Below, one piece after another: positions 27,006-41,007 of a DNA stretch of 64,000 nt (its first letter is position 1; every line of letters begins with the position of its first letter). The translations under genes and the position numbers were made by a program. This DNA comes from Pseudanabaena sp. PCC 7367. Its GTDB lineage: Bacteria > Cyanobacteriota > Cyanobacteriia > Pseudanabaenales > Pseudanabaenaceae. The notes beneath the pieces are model-generated. The model had not been told where the DNA came from, made no database searches, and saw nothing but the letters and a program-made list of their open reading frames with translations. The stretch spans positions 4,288,001 to 4,352,000 of the forward strand of contig NC_019701.1 of assembly GCF_000317065.1 (NCBI RefSeq), in the 5' to 3' direction.

Positions 27006-29090
27006 CTAGAACCTGAAAGATAGGCGCAGATTTGCCACTGTCACGGTAGGATTACTACTGAAGTTGTTAGGATTGAAGATAAAATAGAGGTTGGGTACGA
27101 TCGCAATATTGCGGTTAATCGGATAGAAATAGACCAGCTCCAGGTCATACTGAGTGCCACCATCACCACTACCAGAAACCAGAAACTCACTACCGCTCTT
27201 TACGTCGTAGGGCATCGCAAAGGAGATCATGCCCTGAGCACCACGCTTGAACAAATCGGGAAAAGCTAACCCCACCTGGAATGATTGCATGGTAATTACA
27301 CCATTATCGATCGTGGGATTGGCAGGGTTCAGGCTAGTGCGACCAGTACCATAACGGCCAAACAGAGCCAGATGCTCAGCGATTCGCCAGTCAAAACCCA
27401 GCGTAAATACATTCGATTGGGCATTCACCAGCGCTCCACCAAATCCATCATCGGCCAGACCGCGAATTGGTTCGCCAACCGCATCGCCGACCACATTAAA
27501 GAAACCATCAACCGGATTAGTAAAGGCGTTCTGGTTAGTGCGGTTATAGAGCAGACGCAGCGCAAAACTATCAGTGGGTCTGAAGCCTAGCTCCGTAGTC
27601 AGGCTATAGGTGCCACCAAACAGCCCTTCATCAGGATTACCAGCCGATCGCGGTTGGGGCAAGAAGGTATTACTCTCAGACAAGTAGCCAACTTTGATCT
27701 CAAATTTATCGCCCAGGGGTGCTTGGATGACTGCACCAGCCCCATGTTCGATGTTATTGGTCAGCGTATTATCGATCGAACTGAAGGTGCCACCAGAAGT
27801 AAAAATCAAAGTGTTTGGACTAATATCAAAGACCCGATACCAAACAATCTGGGGGCCAATTTTGAGGCGGGCACGTTCATTAAAGATCGGAAACTCATAG
27901 AACATTTCCTGCAAGGCCACCACATTCTCGCCAAAGGGGCCTGGGCCAGCGGTTTGATCGGTAAAAGGAGCACCCCAGGTATTGGTATGCCCAGCCGAAG
28001 CAAACACATTGGCCGGGGAATTGCCATTACCCATTACGATCGTGCTGACTAGCTGGTCTTTGCCGGTAAATGAAGAAACCAGATTCAGCCACACCAAACC
28101 ACTGAGGGTAGCATTGGGGTTATCGGTGACTATTTCGCTCAGGGGTTGATTGGTAACCGGATCACGGCGGGCGATTTCCCGGCGAATATCGCCACCAAAT
28201 GCCCCGGTCAGATTCATCCAGGCCAAACCATTCAGCTTGGTGACGGTGGAAAATTGTTGGGCTTCGAGCCGGGCGGTGGTGGCTTCTAGAACATCAACTC
28301 GACCACGCAGGGCGGCCAGTTCCGCCGCGAATTCTTCTTGGAGTCTTTGCAGAGCGGCCAGATCTTCTTGGCTTACTTTGTCGGCCAGGCCACTGCTGAT
28401 AATATCGTTGATTTTATCGAGGCAGGCATTTAAACCAGCGGCAAATTCATAGCGGGTGATCGCTTGCTGCCCCCGATAGACCCGATCGCTACCATCAACT
28501 TGCTTCAGCCTTGGCACAATTGGACTGGGTGAAGTGCCTGGTACGTCATAGCCAGCAATACAACCATAGCGTTCTACCAATGATTGCAAGGCTGTAAATG
28601 CCCAATCGGTGGGCTGCACATCACTAAGCTGAGAAACGGAGGTTACACCAGCAGCGATCGGCTTAGTTGGCACTTCATTGCCATATTCAAGCAATAGATC
28701 TAATGACTCGATCTCACTGTGGGGATTGAGATGTCCTAGATCACTAAGATCGCGTGGGTGTACCGCTAAATCAGCTAAATCATTGCTAGTTTGGCTAGCT
28801 AGCGGTGTTTGATTGTCGTAGGTTTGAGTAGCCTGAACCTGAGAATTTGAAGACTGGAGCTGATTAACTTCTGTTTGAGGCGCAACAATTTGATCGGCAG
28901 TGGCGATCGATTCAGATTCAGCCACATCTTTAGCATCTAAAGCATCTAATTGAGCCAGATTATCTATGGTAGCTAGATCAATCTCTTCAGCCCGGAGCGA
29001 TCCTGTCCATATGTCAGCGGAAGCAAGACCTAAGCAAATAGCGATCGAAAACGGAAAGCGCAAACAGCACTTGACCCAAACATTTTTCAT
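27006..29090 (-). CDS. SLH-domain OprB-like outer-membrane porin (iron uptake porin type)
   Basis: About 694 residues from the ATG at 29090, which has GAGGAG 6-7 nt upstream; the open frame extends to 29132. A signal peptide (CLRFPFSIAICLGLASADI) is followed by an acidic, Gln-rich segment. An SLH domain (SQLSDVQPTDWAFTALQSLVERYG) comes next, then a coiled coil (LQRLQEEFAAELAALRGRVDVLEA). The remaining ~400 residues are a beta-barrel of the OprB/SomA type, ending in ...LRLSFRF with the terminal Phe recognised by BAM. Cyanobacterial members form the main outer-membrane channels and pass inorganic ions, including iron. SLH binds peptidoglycan-linked polysaccharide. Confidence 0.9.
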   Translation of the reverse strand: MKNVWVKCCLRFPFSIAICLGLASADIWTGSLRAEEIDLATIDNLAQLDALDAKDVAESESIATADQIVAPQTEVNQLQSSNSQVQATQTYDNQTPLASQTSNDLADLAVHPRDLSDLGHLNPHSEIESLDLLLEYGNEVPTKPIAAGVTSVSQLSDVQPTDWAFTALQSLVERYGCIAGYDVPGTSPSPIVPRLKQVDGSDRVYRGQQAITRYEFAAGLNACLDKINDIISSGLADKVSQEDLAALQRLQEEFAAELAALRGRVDVLEATTARLEAQQFSTVTKLNGLAWMNLTGAFGGDIRREIARRDPVTNQPLSEIVTDNPNATLSGLVWLNLVSSFTGKDQLVSTIVMGNGNSPANVFASAGHTNTWGAPFTDQTAGPGPFGENVVALQEMFYEFPIFNERARLKIGPQIVWYRVFDISPNTLIFTSGGTFSSIDNTLTNNIEHGAGAVIQAPLGDKFEIKVGYLSESNTFLPQPRSAGNPDEGLFGGTYSLTTELGFRPTDSFALRLLYNRTNQNAFTNPVDGFFNVVGDAVGEPIRGLADDGFGGALVNAQSNVFTLGFDWRIAEHLALFGRYGTGRTSLNPANPTIDNGVITMQSFQVGLAFPDLFKRGAQGMISFAMPYDVKSGSEFLVSGSGDGGTQYDLELVYFYPINRNIAIVPNLYFIFNPNNFSSNPTVTVANLRLSFRF

Positions 29091-29509
29091 GGTGTTCTCC
29101 TCACATCTCCACGGCCATCGCAACCAAAGCATTAATGGTGTAATAAACTTCGCTTACGATGGTGAATTAACTTGACTGCGTTCTCAGAGTGGTTGCTATA
29201 AATGCAAAGAAAATAGCATCTCAAGTGCAATCTCAACTTTTACCTTATGTAAGAATATAGCGAAATATACTTAATCCTTGATCGGTATCTATCAACATAA
29301 TATGGTTTTGCTGCTTAAACCAAGTTAATTATGATGAATTTAGATTATGGGAAATGGTTATGCCGCCCAAAATACTAAACAGCTAAAGTCGGGTTGACTA
29401 AATTCAATGACAACGATCGCCAAAAAGCCTAGACCAAACGCCTAGACTTTGATTGTGATTAAGGCTAACTAATTTACCTTGTGGTAAGGGTACTAATCAG
29501 CCAAAAGAC
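29091..29509. other. Upstream region of the porin gene
   Basis: About 420 bp. It carries the porin promoter (leftward) and downstream sequence of the DUF5602-like gene. Repeated AT-rich stretches are seen, but no gene. Confidence 0.4.
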
Positions 29510-30538
29510 TCAGTTTATTTTTTCCTCAAAACCTTGTCGATAGACTAGCTTATCCAAGGCGATGTCAAATTCTTTCTTGTCAGCGTTGTATCTAATTGAA
29601 TATTCCAAGGGATAATAACCACTCTTGGGATATTCATAGGGCTGCACGATCGGCTCAACATAATTAGTTGGCTTAGTCAGCAAAAAACGCCGCGTAATCA
29701 TCGGTTCCCAGAACAACATCTTGCCATTGTATGAACCAAACAGAAAAATTTTGTTGAAGTTACCAGGCTTTAATTCTGGTGAGCTAAGGTCGGCCCAATG
29801 GATGCCCATGCGTGGCTCCAATGTGCCATAGACGATCGAATGCCCCGGCGGCACATACTTGCGCTCCATTTTTTTATGCCCGATCAAGATATCCTGCTTG
29901 GCGGATTTGTCCATGCTGTGGCGATAGTCCATGCTCTCCATGTAGAAATGGACATCAAAGTGAGGCTCCGTAAAGATGCCACCAGGCCAGTGGCCAAAGG
30001 CATTCCAGTTATAGCCCATATGATTAAAGGCGGTTTCTTTGACCTCAGCGGGAAAAGCCAACTCATGCTCGTAGGTGGCATGGCCAATCCCATCCAGCAA
30101 AGTTAGTTTGAGCGCATCTTTCTCAGCCGGATCATCATCAGATTCCGGTAGGCCATATAGGCCATCCTCAGTCATGGTAACGCCAATGCTGGTCGGGTGG
30201 CCGTCTTGGTCAAGCTCTACCCAGGTGGAAACCTCACCATTGCCAATCGGCTTAACATCGCCTGTGACTCGTTTAACCGCTTTGCGTGCTTCGATCGCGC
30301 CAAGTTCTTCATTGCCGATCGCTTGAGGGCGCTCCTGGAACGAGGCGATCGCCCCTTGATTGGTTACCAGGCAAAAGACCAAAACTATTAGCACACTAAC
30401 CAGCCATAGGCTTAGTTTGTGCAAACTTGCTTTAACTGAAATTGACCCTGGAATTGTCGCCATCTTTTTGATGCGATTGGTGGGTGATTCGATCTCAGAC
30501 AAATGGCTAAAACTTTGCTGTTGATTCCACATCTTCAC
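29510..30538 (-). CDS. Exported DUF5602/TTHB210-like protein
   Basis: A 342-residue protein. A hydrophobic segment (LWLVSVLIVLVFCLVT, about residues 45-60) after a basic start makes a signal peptide, with a possible start at Met26 (MATIPGSISVKA) instead of the GTG at 30538. The mature part shows GHATYEHELAFPAEV, NAFGHWPGGIFTEPHFDVHFYM and VPPGHSIVYGTLEP. These His-rich motifs are those I associate with the DUF5602/TTHB210-like family and look like metal ligands. The enzymatic role is unknown. It lies downstream of four NTF2-like genes on the same strand (286 bp gap), which hints at a shared pathway. Confidence 0.68.
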   Translation of the reverse strand: MKMWNQQQSFSHLSEIESPTNRIKKMATIPGSISVKASLHKLSLWLVSVLIVLVFCLVTNQGAIASFQERPQAIGNEELGAIEARKAVKRVTGDVKPIGNGEVSTWVELDQDGHPTSIGVTMTEDGLYGLPESDDDPAEKDALKLTLLDGIGHATYEHELAFPAEVKETAFNHMGYNWNAFGHWPGGIFTEPHFDVHFYMESMDYRHSMDKSAKQDILIGHKKMERKYVPPGHSIVYGTLEPRMGIHWADLSSPELKPGNFNKIFLFGSYNGKMLFWEPMITRRFLLTKPTNYVEPIVQPYEYPKSGYYPLEYSIRYNADKKEFDIALDKLVYRQGFEEKIN

Positions 30539-30824
30539 TAATTTCTACTTAACGTAATTAACAAAAACGAATTAACAAATATTGGCTGTGAATGAGAGTT
30601 CCCAGGCGAGCTTAGCCAATTACCAGATCAACTAATAGGTCAAGATTTAGGAACTCAGAAGCAATTTAGATTATTGTCCTTCAAATCAAGTATTACCTGG
30701 CTGACATGGCGGGAAATAATTGTGCAGGGCGATCGCTCAATATCTGGCGATATCTAAACAAAACTCAAGCTTTGGGTATCAATAGTCAAATCCAAAACAA
30801 TTAGCTCGATCGCCTTTATTGCCT

Positions 30825-31190
30825 TTATTGCCTGAGCGGCGACACATCAACATAGACCCGCAGATCACGGATTAGATCGCCGTCCATCCGAAATATATCT
30901 GTGCCAGGCAGAGTAACCACACTGTCATCATGGCGGTGGTAGTTAATATCTAGCTCACAAATGACCACATCGCCTATTTCCCATAACTCATGGATATCAT
31001 GGGTGACAAACTTAACTCGCTTACGCGCATTGGCAGCAAATTCGCGGATCGCTGGCTTGCCGGTCAAAAGCGGCGCATTAGCAAATTTATATTTGGCCTG
31101 CTCGGTAAAAAAGCCGATGAAATCATCCAGGGTTTTACCACCACCAGTCAAAAAATATTTAATTCGCTCACCCTTGCTACTTATAGACAT
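30825..31190 (-). CDS. NTF2/SnoaL-like protein A
   Basis: About 121 residues from the ATG at 31190, preceded by AGAGGAG 7 nt upstream; an in-frame ATG at 31217 would add nine residues. It has the SnoaL_2/NTF2 cone fold pattern: helices first (LDDFIGFFTEQAKYKFANAP), then HDIHELWEIGDVVICELDINYHR and DDSVVTLPGTDIFRMDGD, ending VDVSPL. NTF2-fold proteins include polyketide cyclases, epoxide hydrolases and steroid isomerases. It is last of four paralogues. Over the C-terminal 58 residues about 33 are identical to protein C by hand alignment. It follows protein B closely (B stop at 31234). Substrate unknown. Confidence 0.8.
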   Translation of the reverse strand: MSISSKGERIKYFLTGGGKTLDDFIGFFTEQAKYKFANAPLLTGKPAIREFAANARKRVKFVTHDIHELWEIGDVVICELDINYHRHDDSVVTLPGTDIFRMDGDLIRDLRVYVDVSPLRQ

Positions 31191-31233
31191 TTGGGGCTCC
31201 TCTGCCATGATTGGCATTTAAAACGTAGGATGA

Positions 31234-31593
31234 CTAGGCAAAAATAGGTGATACATCTATAAATGATTGCAGTTTCTTGACCTTGTCGCCCTCAAACTCA
31301 ATGATATCGAGAGCAGGAATATCAAAGGACTTGCCATCTTTACGATTGTAAACAACGATCATCTCCGCAAAAACTATGTCGCCTTGTTCCCACATGTTTT
31401 TGATGTCATGGGTAACCGAAGTAAAATTATCCATGATTGGGGCGGCAAATTCCTTGATTGCAGCAGGGCCGATCACTGGATCCAGGTTGCTGATCTTGTA
31501 GATCGCATCCTCGGTAAATCCCTTGATGTAATCATCAACATTATTCGCCTCAACTAGTTCGAAGGCTTTCTTGACCAGATCAATTTTGCTCAT
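31234..31593 (-). CDS. NTF2/SnoaL-like protein B
   Basis: A 119-residue protein, the most diverged of the four paralogues. It begins MSKIDLVKKAFELVEAN like protein C, has SVTHDIKNMWEQGDIVFAEMIVVYNRKDGKSFDIPALDIIEFEGDK and ends IDVSPIFA. The conserved Cys of A, C and D after VI is replaced by Ala (FAEM), and TLP is replaced by DIP. It is probably an enzyme or ligand-binding protein of the SnoaL group. It is co-directional with its paralogues; protein A follows with a very short gap. A weak ribosome site only. Confidence 0.8.
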   Translation of the reverse strand: MSKIDLVKKAFELVEANNVDDYIKGFTEDAIYKISNLDPVIGPAAIKEFAAPIMDNFTSVTHDIKNMWEQGDIVFAEMIVVYNRKDGKSFDIPALDIIEFEGDKVKKLQSFIDVSPIFA

Positions 31594-31697
31594 GTTGGTT
31601 TAACTCTAAAACTCTAACCCTAGTTGGTGAATGCAACTGTGAATGTGTGAATACATGTGTGAATAATTGATACAGCGATCGCAAAGGATTACTTATA

Positions 31698-31733
31698 GTT
31701 CGATTAGTTCGATTAGTTCGATTAGTTCGATCG
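31698..31733. repeat. 9-bp tandem repeat GTTCGATTA (four copies, last one degenerate)
   Basis: Three exact GTTCGATTA units and a fourth ending GTTCGATCG lie between genes B and C of the NTF2-like group. No hairpin is formed. Confidence 0.8.
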
Positions 31734-31862
31734 CCTCTGTATTATCTGTTTTGTCTGTCTTGATTATTAAGGTATTACGGTATTAATTACGGTTCGATTC
31801 CGGCCTAACTAATACATAACCACAGAACAATTAAGTTTAGTGATTAGCTAAAGTCTAACTGG

Positions 31863-32225
31863 CTAGGCAAACAGCGGTGAAGCGTCCATAAACACCTTCA
31901 TCTCTTTGACTTTGTCGCCTTCCATGCGGAAAATATCGGTACAGGGCAAGGTCAAAACCGAATCATCCACTTTGGTGTAGTTGATTTCCATTTCGCAAAT
32001 TACCGCATCGCCGCTTTCCCAAATTTCCTTAACATCAAAGGAGATGCCTTTAATTTGATCCATGTGGCTGGCTTTGACCGTTTGTTCGATATTTGCCTTA
32101 CCCACCGCCGCGGGATAATTGCCAAACCGATAGAGAGCATCATCGGTGAGATAGGTTAAAAACTCATCAACTTGCATTCCCTCAAACAATTTGAGCAATG
32201 TTTTTACAGTCTCGATCTTGGACAT
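31863..32225 (-). CDS. NTF2/SnoaL-like protein C
   Basis: About 120 residues from the ATG at 32225, which has GAGG 5 nt upstream; the frame is open to 32249. It starts MSKIETVKTLLKLFEGMQVDEF. The sheet region reads SFDVKEIWESGDAVICEMEINYTK and DDSVLTLPCTDIFRMEGDKVKEMKV, ending MDASPLFA. It is closest to A in the C-terminal half and to B in the N-terminus. Same fold family as A, B and D; no catalytic residues can be named with certainty. It is the third gene of the array in the direction of transcription, after VOC and D. Confidence 0.82.
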   Translation of the reverse strand: MSKIETVKTLLKLFEGMQVDEFLTYLTDDALYRFGNYPAAVGKANIEQTVKASHMDQIKGISFDVKEIWESGDAVICEMEINYTKVDDSVLTLPCTDIFRMEGDKVKEMKVFMDASPLFA

Positions 32226-32424
32226 AATTGCCTCACTTAAACATTTCACTTAAACATTAGACACATTAGATTTGAAAGCGCATTCAGGGCAAAATCGCAG
32301 ATCTGCTAATCACCATTTGAGCAGCCCTGGTGACGACTAACAATTAGATTAGCGATCGTTAATAGGACTATGTTAATAGTAAAAATATTGAGCGATCGCC
32401 ACCTGCTTCTAGATTTATATTTAA

Positions 32425-32871
32425 TTAGCAAAAATTACTCTTTTCTGGCTTTTCAGGCGTAAACAATGGCCCAATGTCCATATAAATGCGCAACTCCTTA
32501 ACCTTGCCATCTTCAAACTTGATCGTGTCACAGCAAGGTAGGGTAACAACCCTGGCATCATGGCCAATGTAAGTCACTTCCATTTTGCAAATCACAGTGC
32601 CATCTGGCATTTCCCAAATGTCCACAATGTGGTGGTGCAAACCCTCACATGCTTCAATAAATCCACTTGAGGTCTCAGCGATCATCTGGGGGGTCTCAAC
32701 GGCAGGGAAATTACCAAACTTGTAGTAACAAGGATCGGTGTAAAACTTGATAAAGTTGTTCACATTCAAGGATTCGCCAGCCAAGAACATCTTTTTAAGC
32801 ACATCGATATTCCCACCAGAGAACTTTGGCCATTTTTTAGTGTGCGGCCATTCCCATGTAATTTCTGCCAT
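32425..32871 (-). CDS. NTF2/SnoaL-like protein D with Trp-rich N-terminus
   Basis: A 148-residue protein. An extra N-terminal segment of about 25 residues rich in Trp and Lys (EITWEWPHTKKWPKF) precedes the NTF2 core (VNNFIKFYTDPCYYKFGNFPAVE). The sheet reads VDIWEMPDGTVICKMEVTYIGHDARVVTLPCCDTIKFEDGKVKELRI and ends MDIGPLF, with an added tail. A GGAG ribosome site lies about 10 nt before the ATG. The paralogues C and A share VICxM/L, TLPCxD and the VKELxI(Y/F)MD end. The Trp-rich extension could contact the VOC partner or a membrane; this is speculation. Confidence 0.82.
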   Translation of the reverse strand: MAEITWEWPHTKKWPKFSGGNIDVLKKMFLAGESLNVNNFIKFYTDPCYYKFGNFPAVETPQMIAETSSGFIEACEGLHHHIVDIWEMPDGTVICKMEVTYIGHDARVVTLPCCDTIKFEDGKVKELRIYMDIGPLFTPEKPEKSNFC

Positions 32872-33223
32872 ACTCTGCTTCTCCTTCTTAACTAATGGTT
32901 CGTTATTACTAATTACTTACAATTACTTGCAATTACTTACAGATAATGCCTTGTACTGTTTGCTGTTTGGGCTGGAGCTAATCAGATCAAATTTAGCTAT
33001 TCAACCCTGGCCATTGCTTAATAACCGAAAAGGTGCGTTTAAATACCTGAAAAATAAAATGCATTGATCAACTATTTAAGTTAATTATTGCTCTGTCTAA
33101 ATTAACAAGGTTTAATCAGTGAAAAGAAACAAGCCAGCTTAAGTAGGTTGTCTTGAAGAAATAGCTTTAGATCAGAATCGGATTAGATTTAGATCAAAAT
33201 CCCGATCGCATCCGGGGTTAAAT
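32872..33223. other. Gap between VOC gene and NTF2-like gene D
   Basis: This 352 bp gap is large for an operon. It has repeated AATTACTTACAATTACTTGC-like sequence (about 32915-32945). No gene. D may have its own promoter here. Confidence 0.4.
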
Positions 33224-34015
33224 CTAGCCATTCGGCATATCGGCCACCGGCACCGAATCGATCGGCCATTTATAGTTAGTGCCGTTTGTTTCGTTATATG
33301 CCTTCTGGGCACCCATAAACTTTTCTTTGGCACCACGGGTGACCTGATTGAATTCTAGCTGCTCCCCATTGGGGCCTTTGGCATAGAACAACGACCAACC
33401 AGAAAAATCACCAAAGTCAAGGTCGGAATATCCTTCCACAAAATAGTCCTCGTCGGCCCAGAACTTATTGGCGTTATATTTGGGATCAACTTTTTGGCGC
33501 TCCGCCTCGGTTTGAACCGTAATGATGCGATTGCAAACTAGGTTGATGCCACGGTTTTGACATTCTTGCTCCAGTTCGATCGCAAACTGGTTCAAGTCCA
33601 CATCATCCTTGACGTGAAATGACAGATGCGGTGCATTGACATAGCCAACCCCAGAAGGAATTTTGCCGCAAAAGTTAGGGGCATTGGGGTTTAACTTGGC
33701 ATCCCTAAAGTGAATTAGCTCAACCACAGTATTACCAAACGAGACAAATCTGACATCTAGCACTTCTTCATCACCGGGTACTAGATTTGGAACCCCAACA
33801 GTTTTGGGATTCAAGCCTTGAGCGATCGCATCGAGGTAATCTTTTTGGAAGCAGGTATTCTGGATCACCTCGCCATAAAAACCATCGCCAGCAATCGCCA
33901 CTTTGCCACCAAGCACTTCAGTATAAAACTCCATCGCTTTGGCCATATCCCCAACGGTGATTCCGAAGTGCTGGACTCCCTGAAGGTAGTAGCCTAAGCT
34001 CCTTTTGTCGCTCAT
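33224..34015 (-). CDS. VOC (glyoxalase/dioxygenase superfamily) protein
   Basis: A 263-residue protein. The first VOC beta-alpha-beta module starts GVQHFGITVGDMAKAMEFYTEVLGGKVAI (His17 a likely metal ligand); the second contains APHLSFHVKDDVDLNQFAIEL (His133-type ligand) and later EQLEFNQVTRG with an acidic ligand. This is the pattern of metal-dependent VOC enzymes such as extradiol dioxygenases and glyoxalase-like proteins. It is the first of a co-directional series VOC-D-C-B-A-DUF5602-like. A Gly-rich ribosome site AGGAGGG lies rather far (15 nt) before the ATG. The substrate is unknown; linkage to SnoaL-like proteins suggests small aromatic, polyketide or epoxide chemistry. Confidence 0.82.
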   Translation of the reverse strand: MSDKRSLGYYLQGVQHFGITVGDMAKAMEFYTEVLGGKVAIAGDGFYGEVIQNTCFQKDYLDAIAQGLNPKTVGVPNLVPGDEEVLDVRFVSFGNTVVELIHFRDAKLNPNAPNFCGKIPSGVGYVNAPHLSFHVKDDVDLNQFAIELEQECQNRGINLVCNRIITVQTEAERQKVDPKYNANKFWADEDYFVEGYSDLDFGDFSGWSLFYAKGPNGEQLEFNQVTRGAKEKFMGAQKAYNETNGTNYKWPIDSVPVADMPNG

Positions 34016-35400: not shown

Positions 35401-37218
35401 ATGAATAACATTGATTTCTCGTTTTCAGATACGATCGCCGGCTATGTTACTAGTTTTGACTCTGATGCTGGAGTCTTTGGGCTTAAAACTTCTGATGGAC
35501 GTGAATATCAGGCTAAACTAACCCCGACTACCTACGCCAAGCTAGCGCGTAACCTTGGTGAGCCCTGGCAGGACTGTACTGGTCAACTTCACTCCATGTT
35601 GACCCCTGGTCGCTTTATGTATACCTATGGCCCTTTTTATTACGAAGGCGGCGGCTATAAGTATGAAGCAAAAGAAATCACCTTTGTGGGGCGCAAGCAA
35701 GAAGAATATAACTTCGAGAAACAAAACTGGTGGATTAATCAGATTCATCAGCTAGGCGATTTTTATCTGCGTGCCCAGTTCCAGGGTGAAGAAGTGGATT
35801 ATCGCAATTATCGCACTGCCCTTTCGGTGACGGGAGCCAAAAAAGGTGATTACCGTCAGGAAACCGATACCATTGCGCGTCTGGTTTATGGCTTTGCCTC
35901 CGCCTTCATGTTGACTGGTGATGAAGCATATTTAGATGCAGCGGAAAAGGGAACTGCCTACCTGCGCGATCACATGCGGTTCGTGGACATCGATGAAGGA
36001 ATTGTTTATTGGTATCACGGTATTGATGTATCTGGGAAACGGGAAACCAAGATTTTTGCGTCTGAGTTTGGCGATGATTATGATGCGATCCCAGCCTATG
36101 AGCAAATCTACGCCCTAGCCGGACCAATGCAAACCTATCGCCTCAATGGTGATCCAGAGATCCTTGATGATGCCGAAAAGACTGTTGAACTATTCGATCG
36201 CTTCTTCCTCGACAAGGATCAGGGCGGTTATTTCTCGCACATCGATCCAATTACGCTCGATCCCCTTTCGCCCTCGATTGGCGATCGCAATATGGGACGC
36301 AAAAATTGGAACTCGGTGGGTGACCATGCTCCTGCCTATTTGATCAATTTGTATCTGGCCACAGGCGAAGAAAAATACATCAAGTTCCTGGAATATACCT
36401 TCGATACGATCGCCAAATACTTCCCCGACTATGAAAACAGTCCCTTTGTACAAGAGAAGTTCTTCTCTGACTGGAGCAAGGATCAAAGCTGGGGTTGGCA
36501 GCAAAACCGGGCAGTAGTGGGCCACAACCTCAAGATTGCCTGGAACCTGATGCGGATGCAAAGTCTGAAGCCCAAGGATGAGTATATGGATCTGGCCAAG
36601 AAGATCGCCGATATGATGCCCGCAGCGGGTGGCGATCAACAACGTGGTGGCTGGTATGACGTGGTCGAGCGCGAACTAGCAGAAGGCGAAGAGAACTATC
36701 GGTTTGTCTGGCACGATCGCAAAGCCTGGTGGCAACAGGAACAGGGTATTCTGGCCTACTATATTCTGGCCGGTATTCTCAAAGATGAAAACTACCATCG
36801 CTTAGCCCGTGAATCCGCCGCCTTCTATAATGCCTTCTTCCTCGATCATGACGACGGTGCGGTCTACTTTAATGTCCTGGCCAATGGTATTCCCTTCTTG
36901 ATGGGGACCGAAAGGCTAAAAGGCTCTCACTCCATGAGTGGCTATCACTCCTTTGAGCTTTGCTATCTAGCTGCGGTTTATACCAACTTCCTGGTAACCA
37001 AACAGCCAATGGATCTTTATTTCATGCCTCTGCCCAATGGGTTTAAGGACAGAATCTTGCGGGTTTCGCCCGATATCTTGCCCCCTGGCAGCATTCGGAT
37101 CGCATCCTGCACGATCGATGACAAGCCCTATGATAACTTTGATGCCGATGCCTTGACTGTCCAGCTCCCTGAAGCGAAGGATCGCCTGAAGGTGAAAGTA
37201 CACATTGTGCCAAACTAA
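35401..37218 (+). CDS. AGE-family (N-acylglucosamine 2-epimerase-like) protein with N-terminal extra domain
   Basis: A 605-residue protein with a strong ribosome site (GAGGAGAG before ATG). Residues 1 to about 110 form a small domain not in ordinary AGE enzymes (SDTIAGYVTSFDSDAGVFGLKTSDG). The rest is an alpha/alpha barrel of the AGE type, with paired helices and key stretches YAGPM-like ALAGPMQTYRLNGD, GDHAPAYLINLY, GHNLKIAWNLMRM, WWQQEQGILAYYIL and SYHSFELCYLAAVY. It corresponds in position to Slr1855 in the icfG cluster of Synechocystis. AGE enzymes epimerise or isomerise sugars; the sugar here is not readable. It is followed by a STAS protein and glgX on the same strand. Confidence 0.85.
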   Translation: MNNIDFSFSDTIAGYVTSFDSDAGVFGLKTSDGREYQAKLTPTTYAKLARNLGEPWQDCTGQLHSMLTPGRFMYTYGPFYYEGGGYKYEAKEITFVGRKQEEYNFEKQNWWINQIHQLGDFYLRAQFQGEEVDYRNYRTALSVTGAKKGDYRQETDTIARLVYGFASAFMLTGDEAYLDAAEKGTAYLRDHMRFVDIDEGIVYWYHGIDVSGKRETKIFASEFGDDYDAIPAYEQIYALAGPMQTYRLNGDPEILDDAEKTVELFDRFFLDKDQGGYFSHIDPITLDPLSPSIGDRNMGRKNWNSVGDHAPAYLINLYLATGEEKYIKFLEYTFDTIAKYFPDYENSPFVQEKFFSDWSKDQSWGWQQNRAVVGHNLKIAWNLMRMQSLKPKDEYMDLAKKIADMMPAAGGDQQRGGWYDVVERELAEGEENYRFVWHDRKAWWQQEQGILAYYILAGILKDENYHRLARESAAFYNAFFLDHDDGAVYFNVLANGIPFLMGTERLKGSHSMSGYHSFELCYLAAVYTNFLVTKQPMDLYFMPLPNGFKDRILRVSPDILPPGSIRIASCTIDDKPYDNFDADALTVQLPEAKDRLKVKVHIVPN

Positions 37219-37306
37219 CCAGAACCAGCCCTGCCTAGGAATATAAGAACTTAAACACTGGTTAATTGTTAAGCCAACCTGCCTGGGTTGGATGTGAGGA
37301 AAAAAG

Positions 37307-37642
37307 ATGGAAATTGAGATCAAAACCCAAGCAGATATTACCCTAGTTGAGCTAGATGGTGATATTGATGCTAATACTGCCCCCACCGTGCAAGAAAAAG
37401 TATTGCCGATCGTCGATTCAAGTAGCAAAATCCTATTGAATATGACAAAGGTGCCATACATGTCTAGTGCGGGATTGCGGACACTCTTGTCCCTCTATCG
37501 CCAGGTATCGGCCAAGGACGGCAAATTAGTTTTGGTGGGTCTAACCGAAGAAATCAAAGACACCATGTCGATCACTGGGTTTCTAGATTTCTTTACTACC
37601 TGCGAAACCGAGGCCGAGGGCTTGGAAACTCTAAATCAATAG
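37307..37642 (+). CDS. STAS-domain anti-sigma factor antagonist (Slr1856-like)
   Basis: A 111-residue protein of the SpoIIAA/RsbV group: ELDGDIDANTAPTVQEKVLP and LLNMTKVPYMSSAGLRTLLS. Ser54 in MSSAG aligns with phosphorylated Ser58 of SpoIIAA by hand alignment. In Synechocystis the cluster homologue Slr1856 is a phosphoprotein of the icfG kinase/phosphatase pair. It stands between the AGE gene and glgX (19 bp to glgX), which suggests control of glycogen metabolism by partner switching. Ribosome site GTGAGGA precedes the ATG. Confidence 0.88.
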   Translation: MEIEIKTQADITLVELDGDIDANTAPTVQEKVLPIVDSSSKILLNMTKVPYMSSAGLRTLLSLYRQVSAKDGKLVLVGLTEEIKDTMSITGFLDFFTTCETEAEGLETLNQ

Positions 37643-37661
37643 GAAGCAATAGGAGAATTGC

Positions 37662-39788
37662 ATGGTACTGGATCGCATTGACATCCATCCAACCCATGAG
37701 TATAAGGGTTTCAAGTTACGCTATGGCAGACCTTTCCCCTTTGGTGCCACCCTGGTGCCGGGAGGGGTGAATTTCTCAATATTTTCACGCCATGCCACTG
37801 CTTGTACCCTGGTACTGTTTGAGCGACATGCTAAGGAACCATTTGCAGAGATTCCCTTCCTAGAGGAATTCCGGATCGGTAATGTGTTTACCATGACCGT
37901 ATTCGATCTCAACTATGAAGAACTGGAATATGGTTATCGCATGGATGGTCCCTATGATCCCAAGGAAGGTCATTGGTTTGACAAAACTAAAATCCTGATG
38001 GATCCCTACGCCAGAATTATTGGCGGCCGTGATATCTGGGGTAAGCAACCGGACTGGGACGATGTCTATCATCACCGGGCTCGGATTGCCTTTGACGATT
38101 TTGATTGGGAATCCGATCGCCCCTTGGAGATCCCGCCAGAAGACTTAACCGTCTATGAAATGCATGTGCGCAGTTTCACTAAACATGAATCCTCTGGTGT
38201 CAAACATCCCGGCACCTATGCGGCGATCCGCGATAAGATCCCTTACTTAAAGGAGTTAGGCGTTAATTGCATTGAACTCATGCCGATCTATGAGTTTGAT
38301 GAGTTTGAAAACAGCCGCCCCAATCCCCAAAACCCCGAAGAAACCCTGATGAACTATTGGGGCTATAGCACCGTAGGGTTCTTTGCGCCCAAAGCTGGCT
38401 ATGCAGCCACTGGCAAATTTGGGATGCAGGTGGATGAACTCAAGGCAATGATCAAGGAATTGCATCGCAATGGGATTGAGGTGATTCTGGATGTGGTATT
38501 TAATCACACCGCCGAAGGGAACGAAAAAGGGCCTTATATTTCCTACCGTGGGTTAGACAATCAAACCTACTATATGCTCACGCCCGATGGTTATTACTTT
38601 AACTTTAGCGGCACTGGCAATACCCTAAATTGTAATAATCCGATCGTGCGGAATATGGTGCTAGACTGCCTCCGCTATTGGGCAGCCGAATACCACGTGG
38701 ATGGGTTCCGGTTTGACCTGGCCTCGATCCTCAGCCGTGATGCCTGGGGTGCGCCATTGGCAAATCCGCCGCTTTTGGAAACCCTGGCATTCGATCCAAT
38801 TTTGGCTAAATGCAAATTGATTGCCGAAGCCTGGGATGCTGGCGGCCTCTATCAAGTTGGCTCTTTCCCCGCCTTTGGCCGTTGGGCTGAATGGAATGGC
38901 AAATACCGCGATTGCATTCGCAAGTTCATCAAAGGCGATGATGGTATGGCTGGTGAGATGGCACAAAGAATTCAGGGTTCTCCCGATCTCTATGCCTGGG
39001 GTGGTCGTGGCCCAGCAACTTCGATCAACTTTATTACCTGCCACGATGGATTTACCTTGATGGATACGGTTTCCTACAATGGCAAGCACAATGATGCCAA
39101 TGGGGAAGACAATCGTGACGGCAACAATGATAACGATAGTTGGAACTGTGGCTGGGAAGGGCCAACCGATGATTCCGGCATCAACGCCCTGCGTCAGCGC
39201 CAGATCAAAAATGCCGTGGCGATTATGATTGCCAGCCAAGGTGTACCGATGTTCCTGATGGGCGATGAGATGGGTCGCACTAAATATGGTAACAACAATA
39301 CCTATTGCCATGACAACGAACTAAACTGGCTGGATTGGGATTTGTTAAATCAAAACCAAGGTCTATTTAGATTCTTTAAACTGGCGATCGCCTTCCGGAT
39401 GGCTCATCCAGTGTTGCGCAGCCGTACCCACTTCCGCAATTATGATTATGTGGGCAGTGGTTATTCAGACATTACCTGGCACGGCACTCAAGCTTGGAAT
39501 GCGGACTGGTCAGACTCTAGCCACGCCCTAGCGTTTATGCTCTGTGGCAAACATGCCAAGGAGGGTACTGTCAATGATGACTATATCTATGTGGCGATGA
39601 ATACCCACTGGGATGCATTGTGGTTTGAACCACCTGGCCTACCCGAGGGTATGCAATGGCATGTGTTCGCTAATACTGGGGCAAGCTCGCCGGAGGATGT
39701 TTGGACTCCTGGCCAAGAACCGGCTTTAGAAAATCAGCACGGCATCTTACTTGGCGATCGATCGGTTGTAATTCTGGTCGGCAGATAG
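37662..39788 (+). CDS. glgX: Glycogen debranching enzyme GlgX (isoamylase-type GH13)
   Basis: A 708-residue GH13 protein. An N-terminal CBM48 domain (GATLVPGGVNFSIFSRHAT) precedes the barrel. Conserved regions are LDVVFNHTAEG (I), GFRFDLASIL with the nucleophile Asp (II), AEAWDAGG with the acid Glu (III) and FITCHDGFTLMD (IV). The C-terminal all-beta domain ends with VVILVGR. It hydrolyses alpha-1,6 branches in glycogen after phosphorylase action. AGGAGA lies before the ATG. It lies between two STAS genes; in Synechocystis its counterpart is Slr1857 in the icfG cluster. Confidence 0.94.
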   Translation: MVLDRIDIHPTHEYKGFKLRYGRPFPFGATLVPGGVNFSIFSRHATACTLVLFERHAKEPFAEIPFLEEFRIGNVFTMTVFDLNYEELEYGYRMDGPYDPKEGHWFDKTKILMDPYARIIGGRDIWGKQPDWDDVYHHRARIAFDDFDWESDRPLEIPPEDLTVYEMHVRSFTKHESSGVKHPGTYAAIRDKIPYLKELGVNCIELMPIYEFDEFENSRPNPQNPEETLMNYWGYSTVGFFAPKAGYAATGKFGMQVDELKAMIKELHRNGIEVILDVVFNHTAEGNEKGPYISYRGLDNQTYYMLTPDGYYFNFSGTGNTLNCNNPIVRNMVLDCLRYWAAEYHVDGFRFDLASILSRDAWGAPLANPPLLETLAFDPILAKCKLIAEAWDAGGLYQVGSFPAFGRWAEWNGKYRDCIRKFIKGDDGMAGEMAQRIQGSPDLYAWGGRGPATSINFITCHDGFTLMDTVSYNGKHNDANGEDNRDGNNDNDSWNCGWEGPTDDSGINALRQRQIKNAVAIMIASQGVPMFLMGDEMGRTKYGNNNTYCHDNELNWLDWDLLNQNQGLFRFFKLAIAFRMAHPVLRSRTHFRNYDYVGSGYSDITWHGTQAWNADWSDSSHALAFMLCGKHAKEGTVNDDYIYVAMNTHWDALWFEPPGLPEGMQWHVFANTGASSPEDVWTPGQEPALENQHGILLGDRSVVILVGR

Positions 39789-40067
39789 CAAAGGCAGCTT
39801 TGTCAACCAACTGCTTGAGTTTTTTAGGATTACAGCAAGTTCTCAACTAGATTGCTCTTTTATGTAGGCTTGTTCTATCTATTTGCCAATAGATTGCTGA
39901 GTGATTAGCGATTACCAAGTTTGCTCAAATAGCTGGATCAGCACAGTGCTAAATGCGCTTGGTTGCAATAAAAGCTAGTCTGGCTAGCCATTTAGCATTC
40001 CAATCACCCTATTATTCATTATCCGTAGTTACCACCAAAAATTAACCACCCTGAAAGGAGAAACTCT

Positions 40068-40403
40068 ATGGCTTTTGATGCATCTCTAGAAGTTGATAAT
40101 GGCATTGCTAAAATAACCGTATCCGGTGAACTAGACGCAAGCACCGCTCCTGTGTTTAAAGAAGAAGTAGAAAAGGCGGCAGGTGCCGAAGTGAAAAAGC
40201 TAGTTTTGCTCATGCAAGAGCTAGAGTATATGGCTAGTGCTGGTTTGAGAGTGCTGATTTTTGCCAAGCAGAAAATGGGTGCGGATGTAGATATCTATTT
40301 GGTTGGCACCCAAGAAATGGTTCTGGATACAGTTAAAAAGACTGGCTTCGATCACAGTGTCTTTTTGCTCGATGAGTATGATGCAGCTCAGATTGAAAGC
40401 TAA
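40068..40403 (+). CDS. STAS-domain anti-sigma factor antagonist (Slr1859-like)
   Basis: A 111-residue SpoIIAA/RsbV-type protein: VSGELDASTAPVFKEEVEKA and LEYMASAGLRVLIFAKQ. Ser57 in MASAG aligns with the phosphoacceptor of SpoIIAA. It is 279 bp after glgX and 181 bp before the RsbW-like kinase; a strong AAAGGAGA ribosome site precedes the ATG. The Synechocystis counterpart Slr1859 is a phosphoprotein. In Synechocystis the phosphatase IcfG (Slr1860) follows, but here there is no room for it (182 bp). Confidence 0.88.
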   Translation: MAFDASLEVDNGIAKITVSGELDASTAPVFKEEVEKAAGAEVKKLVLLMQELEYMASAGLRVLIFAKQKMGADVDIYLVGTQEMVLDTVKKTGFDHSVFLLDEYDAAQIES

Positions 40404-40584
40404 GGATTAAGTTGGTTGTTAGATAGCAGGTTAGTGGCGATCGCTCTGCCAATTGGCAAACGAGATTAAATCTATGCTTGCTATCTAGCTAAATTAGGCT
40501 TTTACAAAAGTTACCTGCTTTGAGCTAGGCAAATATTAGCTTCGATTGTTTCTACCCGTATTTCTCAACATTCATGGAAATATC

Positions 40585-41007
40585 ATGGAACCTTTAACCG
40601 TACCAGGGAAGCTGGATTCCCTCTCACCGATCGCCAAATATGTTATGCATGCTGCTGGAGAAGCAGGGTTAGATAAAAAGGCAGCCTATCGGCTTCGCTT
40701 AGCAGTCGATGAAATTGTTACTAATATTATTCTGCATGGCTATGAAGAGGCTGGGCTAGAAGGGGATGTGCATATTAAGGCTGATCTGGATGCTGCCACA
40801 TTGACAATTTGTGTAGAGGATACGGGGGAAAAATTTGATCCGGCCAGTAAAGAAGATCCCGGTGATCTCAGCCAGCCCTTGGAAAACCGATCGATCGGTG
40901 GACTGGGGGTTTATCTGGCTTTCCAGGGGGTAGATAAATTTCAGTATGAACGCACTGGCAAGGTTAACTGTAATACTTTTGTGATGAACCGCCCCCAGGC
41001 AGAATAA
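40585..41007 (+). CDS. RsbW/SpoIIAB-like serine kinase, anti-sigma regulatory factor (Slr1861-like)
   Basis: About 140 residues from the ATG at 40585 (the frame is open to a TTG at 40546, but MEPLTVPGKLDSL is the natural start). It is a GHKL ATPase of the RsbW type: N-box RLAVDEIVTNIILHGY, G1-box VEDTGEKFDP, G2-box GGLGVYL. Such kinases phosphorylate STAS antagonists on Ser and, when free, bind sigma factors or other targets. The two STAS proteins at 37307 and 40068 are the expected substrates. The phosphatase is not in the window. Confidence 0.88.
   Translation: MEPLTVPGKLDSLSPIAKYVMHAAGEAGLDKKAAYRLRLAVDEIVTNIILHGYEEAGLEGDVHIKADLDAATLTICVEDTGEKFDPASKEDPGDLSQPLENRSIGGLGVYLAFQGVDKFQYERTGKVNCNTFVMNRPQAE

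Follow-up and report, generated by a model that had tools for sequence, protein, structure and literature searches.

An array of VOC, SnoaL and TTHB210-like genes as an extension of an icfG-type cluster in Pseudanabaena sp. PCC 7367

Introduction

What purpose might be served by four SnoaL/NTF2-like paralogues that lie between the genes of a VOC protein and of an exported, His-rich protein? This arrangement occupies positions 29510-34015 of a stretch of 64,000 nucleotides from the cyanobacterium Pseudanabaena sp. PCC 7367 (NC_019701.1, positions 4,288,001 to 4,352,000 of the forward strand), hereafter called the window. An original prediction made from the letters of the stretch had described a one-directional array of local duplicates, had hinted at small-molecule chemistry and knew of no described context for it. 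Here we report that VOC, SnoaL and TTHB210-like genes are found together repeatedly, and that they accompany or are fused to EthD, CMD, Slr1852-like, DJ-1/PfpI and AGE-STAS-GlgX-STAS-HATPase components. The array is real, conserved and larger than first noted, and there is good support for filing it under the icfG cluster as an extension. We give even odds to the view that the array belongs, as its local portion, to an enlarged icfG cluster and encodes subunits of an icfG-controlled multi-enzyme system for small-molecule tailoring.

Results

The array recurs as a linked set

All six open reading frames (ORFs) of the array, encoding VOC, the SnoaL/NTF2-like proteins D, C, B and A and the TTHB210-like protein, were confirmed on the minus strand and passed their Pfam cut-offs. 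The proposed linkage of VOC, NTF2-like and TTHB210-like genes was indeed found elsewhere, namely in Calothrix brevissima NIES-22 (L154), Tolypothrix FACHB-123 (L155) and an acidobacterium (L233), and SnoaL x4-TTHB210 was also present in G221. In Calothrix brevissima NIES-22 VOC, the four SnoaL domains and TTHB210 are ordered as in the window. Both L154 and L155 carry the whole set on one strand, with OprB, VOC, SnoaL, SnoaL-SnoaL, SnoaL and TTHB210 making up the array half and EthD, Slr1852-like, DJ-1, AGE, STAS, GlgX, STAS and HATPase the remainder. The acidobacterial locus holds VOC, three SnoaL and a convergent TTHB210 within 7.3 kb; a by-eye reading puts a porin-like protein and a small exported one between them. 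Because the linked set recurs in these four places, VOC, NTF2-like and TTHB210-like proteins very probably form one functional unit.

A context could also be assigned, contrary to the original prediction. The array borders an icfG-type cluster whose AGE gene lies 1,385 bp from VOC, and the regulatory part of this cluster is described for Synechocystis in portions of PMC8670252 and PMC12329169. A second locus of the window genome (C2, ~360-364 kb) contains EthD, a double CMD, Slr1852-like and DJ-1 in one run, so that the set is split over two places in this genome.

Fusions and gene order tie the array to the icfG enzymes

We scanned for relatives of EthD by alignment and obtained 243, of which the best 80 were kept; they represent 74 loci, on all ORFs of which the family profiles were then run. 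Seven of the 74 loci held proteobacterial EthD relatives with none of the other cluster members nearby and were counted apart. Many of the remaining 67 loci are cut by contig ends, and the per-locus counts are therefore lower bounds: Slr1852-like was found at 53, CMD at 51, DJ-1 at 42, SnoaL at 39, AGE at 37, VOC at 33, STAS at 29, GlgX at 28, OprB and multicopper oxidase at 14 each and TTHB210 at 3. EthD and VOC shared one ORF at 27 of the 67 loci, typically as CMD-EthD-VOC-SnoaL-SnoaL, and VOC and SnoaL did so at 26. ABM is fused to SnoaL-SnoaL in G178, G212 and L192. AGE is fused to STAS in L070 (1782-3941) and in L176, L178, L181, L182, L185, L195, L197, L198, L208 and L211, which ties the epimerase directly to the partner switch. 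A whole-genome search of 42 genomes with EthD returned VOC in 28 and TTHB210 in five, all five of them with VOC.

Catalytic-type residues are well kept in the companions. Cys131-His132 of DJ-1, a deglycase-type DJ-1/PfpI match, is present in 55/55 sequences, and His70 and Glu83 of CMD are present in 81/83 and 82/83, respectively. The Slr1852-like protein (L139:9170-9739 plus 64 relatives) has no Pfam match and represents an unassigned family, yet its conservation is extreme, with Cys, His, Trp and Arg positions kept in 65/65. Neither EthD nor the Slr1852-like protein had usable hits in PDB sequence searches. All or part of the EthD-CMD-Slr1852-like-DJ-1-AGE-GlgX core was also seen in L187, L197, L198, L153, L159 and L217, and the metagenome-assembled genomes with that core are named Nitrospirae, Ignavibacteria, Ca. 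Magnetomicrobium and Acidobacteria. Synechococcus-type genomes of ~2 Mb retain the cluster as well (L208, L211, L206, L070, L073), with large multicopper oxidases adjoining.

Presence is nested across cyanobacteria

We then considered 242 cyanobacterial genomes. VOC occurred in 6, EthD in 9 (8 strong), TTHB210 in 12 (3 strong), DJ-1 in 14, Slr1852-like in exactly the same 14 and AGE in 24. The SnoaL profile matched 31 genomes at E 1e-6 and reached E 1e-30 or better in 7 of these; the weaker relatives (E 1e-26 to 1e-6) in the other 24, none of which has a strong EthD match, are kept outside our claim. Nesting is seen among the strong sets, with VOC and strong SnoaL inside EthD, EthD inside the 14 and the 14 inside AGE; the hypergeometric odds are ~1e-10 or less for each such step, although the genomes are not independent.

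The SnoaL paralogues are old

A-D are the four top SnoaL_2 (PF12680) matches of the genome and all exceed the curated cut-off (36.5 to 51.9 bits vs 27). Identity to A is 39% for B, 43% for C and 33% for D. The motifs said to be shared by all four are strict in A and C only; B reads WEQGDIVFAEM and DIPALDI, and D reads WEMPDGTVICKM and TLPCCDTIKF. A PCxD (Cys-x-Asp) motif is typical of the family here. Cys is missing from the window B, as had been noticed, but this loss is not typical since the B orthologues of G088 and G221 retain it. The Trp-rich N-terminus of D was likewise correctly seen; it is common to the D orthologues of the same two genomes.

A tree of 36 rows grouped the window C with its counterparts in G088, G221, Calothrix and Phormidium and with a single acidobacterial copy (99/97), and the window D with the D copies of the same four (95/96). 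The A group had a support of 94/87 and the B group, which includes one acidobacterial copy, of 80/73; in an approximately unbiased test with five named B rows one clade was not rejected (p 0.38). Recent local duplication is thus rejected for C and D and unlikely for A and B. As the orthologous groups of C and D are old, with a weaker case for those of A and B, and as C reaches an acidobacterium, the four are not recent local duplicates: the original prediction was right about the kind of relationship and wrong about its age.

C and B are fused into one chain in Calothrix and Phormidium. A tree of 75 rows left A unresolved and separated B from non-B domains by a split of 31 against 44 rows with a support of 97. 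Tandem SnoaL ORFs followed the order non-B then B in 21/23 cases, and all 21 of those loci contain both kinds. These pairs are not independent because fused pairs share ancestry, and the pairing counts rest solely on the 75-domain result.

The AlphaFold2 model of C (predicted local distance difference test score, pLDDT, 93.4) has the NTF2 fold. It was closest to limonene-1,2-epoxide hydrolase (LEH; 5aif, Z 19.7, 1.5 A over 119 residues), followed at Z 16 to 17.5 by putative polyketide cyclases, TerC, SdnG and ketosteroid isomerase entries. Tyr53 and Asp132 of LEH, whose roles are described in a part of PMC3734700, align with the Tyr and the last Asp of the SnoaL family.

VOC and the TTHB210-like protein

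H16, E99 and E221 of VOC are kept in 41/41 domains and H130 in 40/41. By comparison with glyoxalase I we take these residues to form a 2-His-2-Glu metal site; at the sequence level all four ligands of a putative metal-dependent VOC enzyme are present. The window VOC reached no NCBIfam equivalog cut-off, and its PDB sequence matches span the first 40 residues only. Viral spread was considered and rejected, as a scan of viral_contigs with the VOC profile found no relative.

The exported protein belongs to PF18197 (59.5 bits vs a cut-off of 26.6), the 'TTHB210-like' family that we take to be DUF5602. Five His, one Asp and one Glu are kept in 9/9 close relatives. The protein had no PDB sequence match, and its model, although confident (pLDDT 87.2), gave no clear fold match either (best E of 0.025 with Foldseek against PDB and of 0.11 with BFVD; highest VIA-align Z 4.6, over 60 residues). 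A second TTHB210-like domain lies elsewhere in the window genome (C2, ~2.64 Mb), at the end of an 878-aa cupin-CHRD-cupin protein (L074:8354-10990); a cupin-CHRD protein is also recurrent in 18/77 cluster loci.

Organisation of the window genes

The features of the array and its surroundings are listed in Table 1. Other starts than those of the ORFs come into question for three genes. For C the ATG at 32225 is likelier and yields 120 aa, in agreement with the N-termini of C orthologues; for A an in-frame ATG at 31190 is a possible alternative; and for the TTHB210-like protein, starting at the ATG of 30461 would on a by-eye reading make the N-terminus more like a signal peptide. From VOC to the TTHB210-like gene the intergenic gaps measure 352, 175, 269, 16 and 286 bp. 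A scan of the array for promoter- or terminator-like sites gave nothing above shuffled sequence, and with gaps of up to 352 bp the array is no more than a possible single transcript. A short run of 'atcgaacta' repeat units lies at 31670-31740, between C and B.

Table 1. Genes of the array and of the adjoining icfG-type block, in positions of the window
Feature	Position	Strand	Length (aa)	Profile match and remarks
OprB-type porin adjoining array	27006..29132	-		PF04966, 98.6 bits
Exported TTHB210-like protein, His-rich	29510..30538	-	342	PF18197, 59.5 bits
SnoaL/NTF2-like A	30825..31217	-	130	PF12680, 45 bits
SnoaL/NTF2-like B	31234..31593	-	119	PF12680, 51.9 bits
SnoaL/NTF2-like C	31863..32249	-	128	PF12680, 45.5 bits
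SnoaL/NTF2-like D	32425..32871	-	148	PF12680, 36.5 bits
VOC protein with invariant H16/E99/H130/E221	33224..34015	-	263	PF00903, 36.7 bits
AGE-family epimerase (Slr1855-like)	35401..37218	+		PF07221; divergent from VOC
STAS protein	37307..37642	+		PF01740, 92.7 bits
GlgX-type glycogen debranching enzyme	37662..39788	+		own profile and position; named by similarity
Second STAS protein	40068..40403	+		PF01740, 68.1 bits
Anti-sigma kinase-type HATPase (Slr1861-like)	40546..41007	+		PF13581, 83.5 bits for 40582-41007

Discussion

A possible tailoring system under icfG control

Unlike the gene association, the substrate and chemistry of the array are what we infer. VOC, SnoaL, EthD, CMD and their companions would be subunits of one cofactor-light multi-enzyme tailoring system; the hint at such chemistry in the original prediction, which overall is partly supported, fits the company of EthD, CMD and ABM. 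VOC would act as a 2-His-2-Glu metalloenzyme of the glyoxalase/dioxygenase type on an enediol, alpha-hydroxycarbonyl or quinol-like intermediate. The SnoaL proteins would be acid-base enzymes of the LEH/SnoaL fold that use the conserved Tyr and the C-terminal Asp, and might be paired unlike, one B-type with one A-, C- or D-type. EthD, elsewhere also ABM, and CMD may contribute oxygenation or cyclisation, and decarboxylation, while DJ-1 may clear leaked carbonyls. The exported TTHB210 protein, together with the porin or a multicopper oxidase, might act on or release the product.

GlgX and AGE would provide sugar and the STAS/anti-sigma switch would set expression, so the substrate is probably carbohydrate-derived. 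The sugar context of the cluster comprises GlgX, AGE, OprB and, in a divergent operon of G120 and G218, exported ABM and polysaccharide deacetylase. In these two genomes, which have a Synechocystis-like order, the gene for the exported ABM monooxygenase is divergent from the Slr1852-like gene and is followed by two exported proteins, a xylose-isomerase-like protein, a hydrolase and the polysaccharide deacetylase (Pfam on the G120 copies). From this company, namely the operon of exported ABM and polysaccharide deacetylase, the ABM fusions and the rhizobial VOC relatives beside a 'putative quinol monooxygenase', we infer that sugar-derived chemistry is most likely.

A more far-reaching version of the tailoring system is conceivable, if doubtful: an undescribed pathway, present in cyanobacteria and several other phyla, in which a CMD-EthD-VOC-SnoaL-SnoaL assembly with obligate unlike SnoaL pairs yields a carbohydrate-derived product that is governed or sensed by the icfG partner switch. 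The window genes might then represent that multi-domain assembly split into single genes.

Several observations weigh against the proposed tailoring system. Arg99 of LEH has no counterpart in the profile alignment of the SnoaL family, where PCxD is typical instead, and we therefore call the fold of C LEH-like and assign no reaction. The split into B and non-B is not clean once all 139 domains are included. VOC occurs without SnoaL in G146, SnoaL without VOC in G065 and G157, 14/42 EthD genomes have no VOC match and only 5/42 have TTHB210; given these absences only the core is obligatory. In G088 the VOC copies, the SnoaL array and the core sit at different places.

Alternative explanations

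The components might instead form a detoxification set, with VOC as glyoxalase, DJ-1 as deglycase and EthD/ABM as quinol monooxygenase, that removes reactive dicarbonyls and quinones arising from glycogen or sugar mobilisation and makes no dedicated product. The deglycase-type match of DJ-1 and the glyoxalase-type ligands of VOC agree with this, as does a 'putative quinol monooxygenase' adjoining rhizobial VOC relatives in both of the regions inspected, out of five records. However, large ordered fusions and SnoaL paralogues that are old and distinct point to a dedicated route of several steps, and presence in 6 to 14 of 242 genomes is narrow for a general stress need, which leaves detoxification unlikely. 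EthD, CMD, SnoaL, ABM and VOC families often serve aromatic or polyketide pathways, and the array could, as the original prediction hinted, finish an aromatic skeleton of a secondary metabolite made elsewhere. Putative polyketide cyclases, TerC and SdnG among the structural neighbours of C point in this direction, but no polyketide synthase was noticed among the recurrent neighbours, for which no formal search was made, and it is sugar metabolism and the icfG switch that regularly accompany the array; we consider this quite improbable.

Could the SnoaL, EthD and VOC domains instead be a sensor or scaffold that catalyses nothing and binds a metabolite as input to the STAS/anti-sigma switch? Repeated unlike domains in one chain could represent a binding scaffold, and AGE-STAS fusions such as those of L070, L195 and L208 tie the block to the switch. 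Against this, residues of catalytic type are kept in VOC, DJ-1 and CMD, and no fusion of SnoaL, EthD or VOC to STAS or HATPase was seen among the loci, so that a purely sensory role appears very improbable. That the genes form no functional unit and are neighbours by chance or through a shared mobile island would accord with the patchy distribution and with the scattering of loci over separate places in the window genome and in G088, but is contradicted by fusions, conserved order and nested presence to a degree that makes it hardly credible.

A link between the icfG cluster and carbon control is of long standing, but the papers found do not state what its Slr1852-Slr1855-type enzymes make or degrade. 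Our full-text literature search found no paper on the extended cluster, with subscription papers mostly outside its coverage. Fusions of EthD, VOC and SnoaL among the relatives of the icfG enzymes indicate which proteins work together, and the natural single-gene and fused versions offer material for biochemistry. Thus, four small paralogues gain a testable list of partners, and a carbon-signalling switch is linked to a definite piece of chemistry.

Comparison with known systems

C exceeds the SnoaL_2 cut-off but stays below that of the LEH family (12.8 bits vs 24), and the Asp-Arg-Asp triad of LEH is incomplete in it. The window VOC shares PF00903 and the 2-His-2-Glu pattern with glyoxalase/VOC enzymes, from which it differs in its 263 aa with a long insert. 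VOC proteins encoded on rhizobial plasmids are ~40% identical to it and lie beside an ABM-type gene; the two annotated rhizobial stretches name no SnoaL array, CMD, EthD, AGE or GlgX, and one separate NTF2-family gene occurs there (L229). Compared with other TTHB210-like proteins, the window protein is far longer than the 50-position model of PF18197.

The closest known relative of the whole is the icfG operon of Synechocystis sp. PCC 6803. According to portions of PMC8670252, its region slr1852-1862 includes the epimerase Slr1855, Slr1856, GlgX1 and IcfG; slr1853 is annotated as carboxymuconolactone decarboxylase in a part of PMC3564720, and sections of PMC12329169 describe Slr1861 as anti-SigC and kinase of Slr1856 and Slr1859 and report carbon phenotypes in icfG-operon mutants. 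A divergent sll1783 operon accompanies slr1852-slr1862. The order AGE-STAS-GlgX-STAS-HATPase is also that of window positions 35401-41007. In contrast to the Synechocystis operon, the window block contains no gene for an icfG (SpoIIE/PP2C-type) phosphatase: 143 bp separate the second STAS from HATPase, and the 8 SpoIIE-type matches of the window genome all lie outside the window. Slr1852-, Slr1853- and Slr1854-like genes, which adjoin AGE in G120 and G218, are located not just upstream of the window AGE but at the second locus on C2, and VOC, the four SnoaL genes and TTHB210 are additions to the icfG arrangement in the window.

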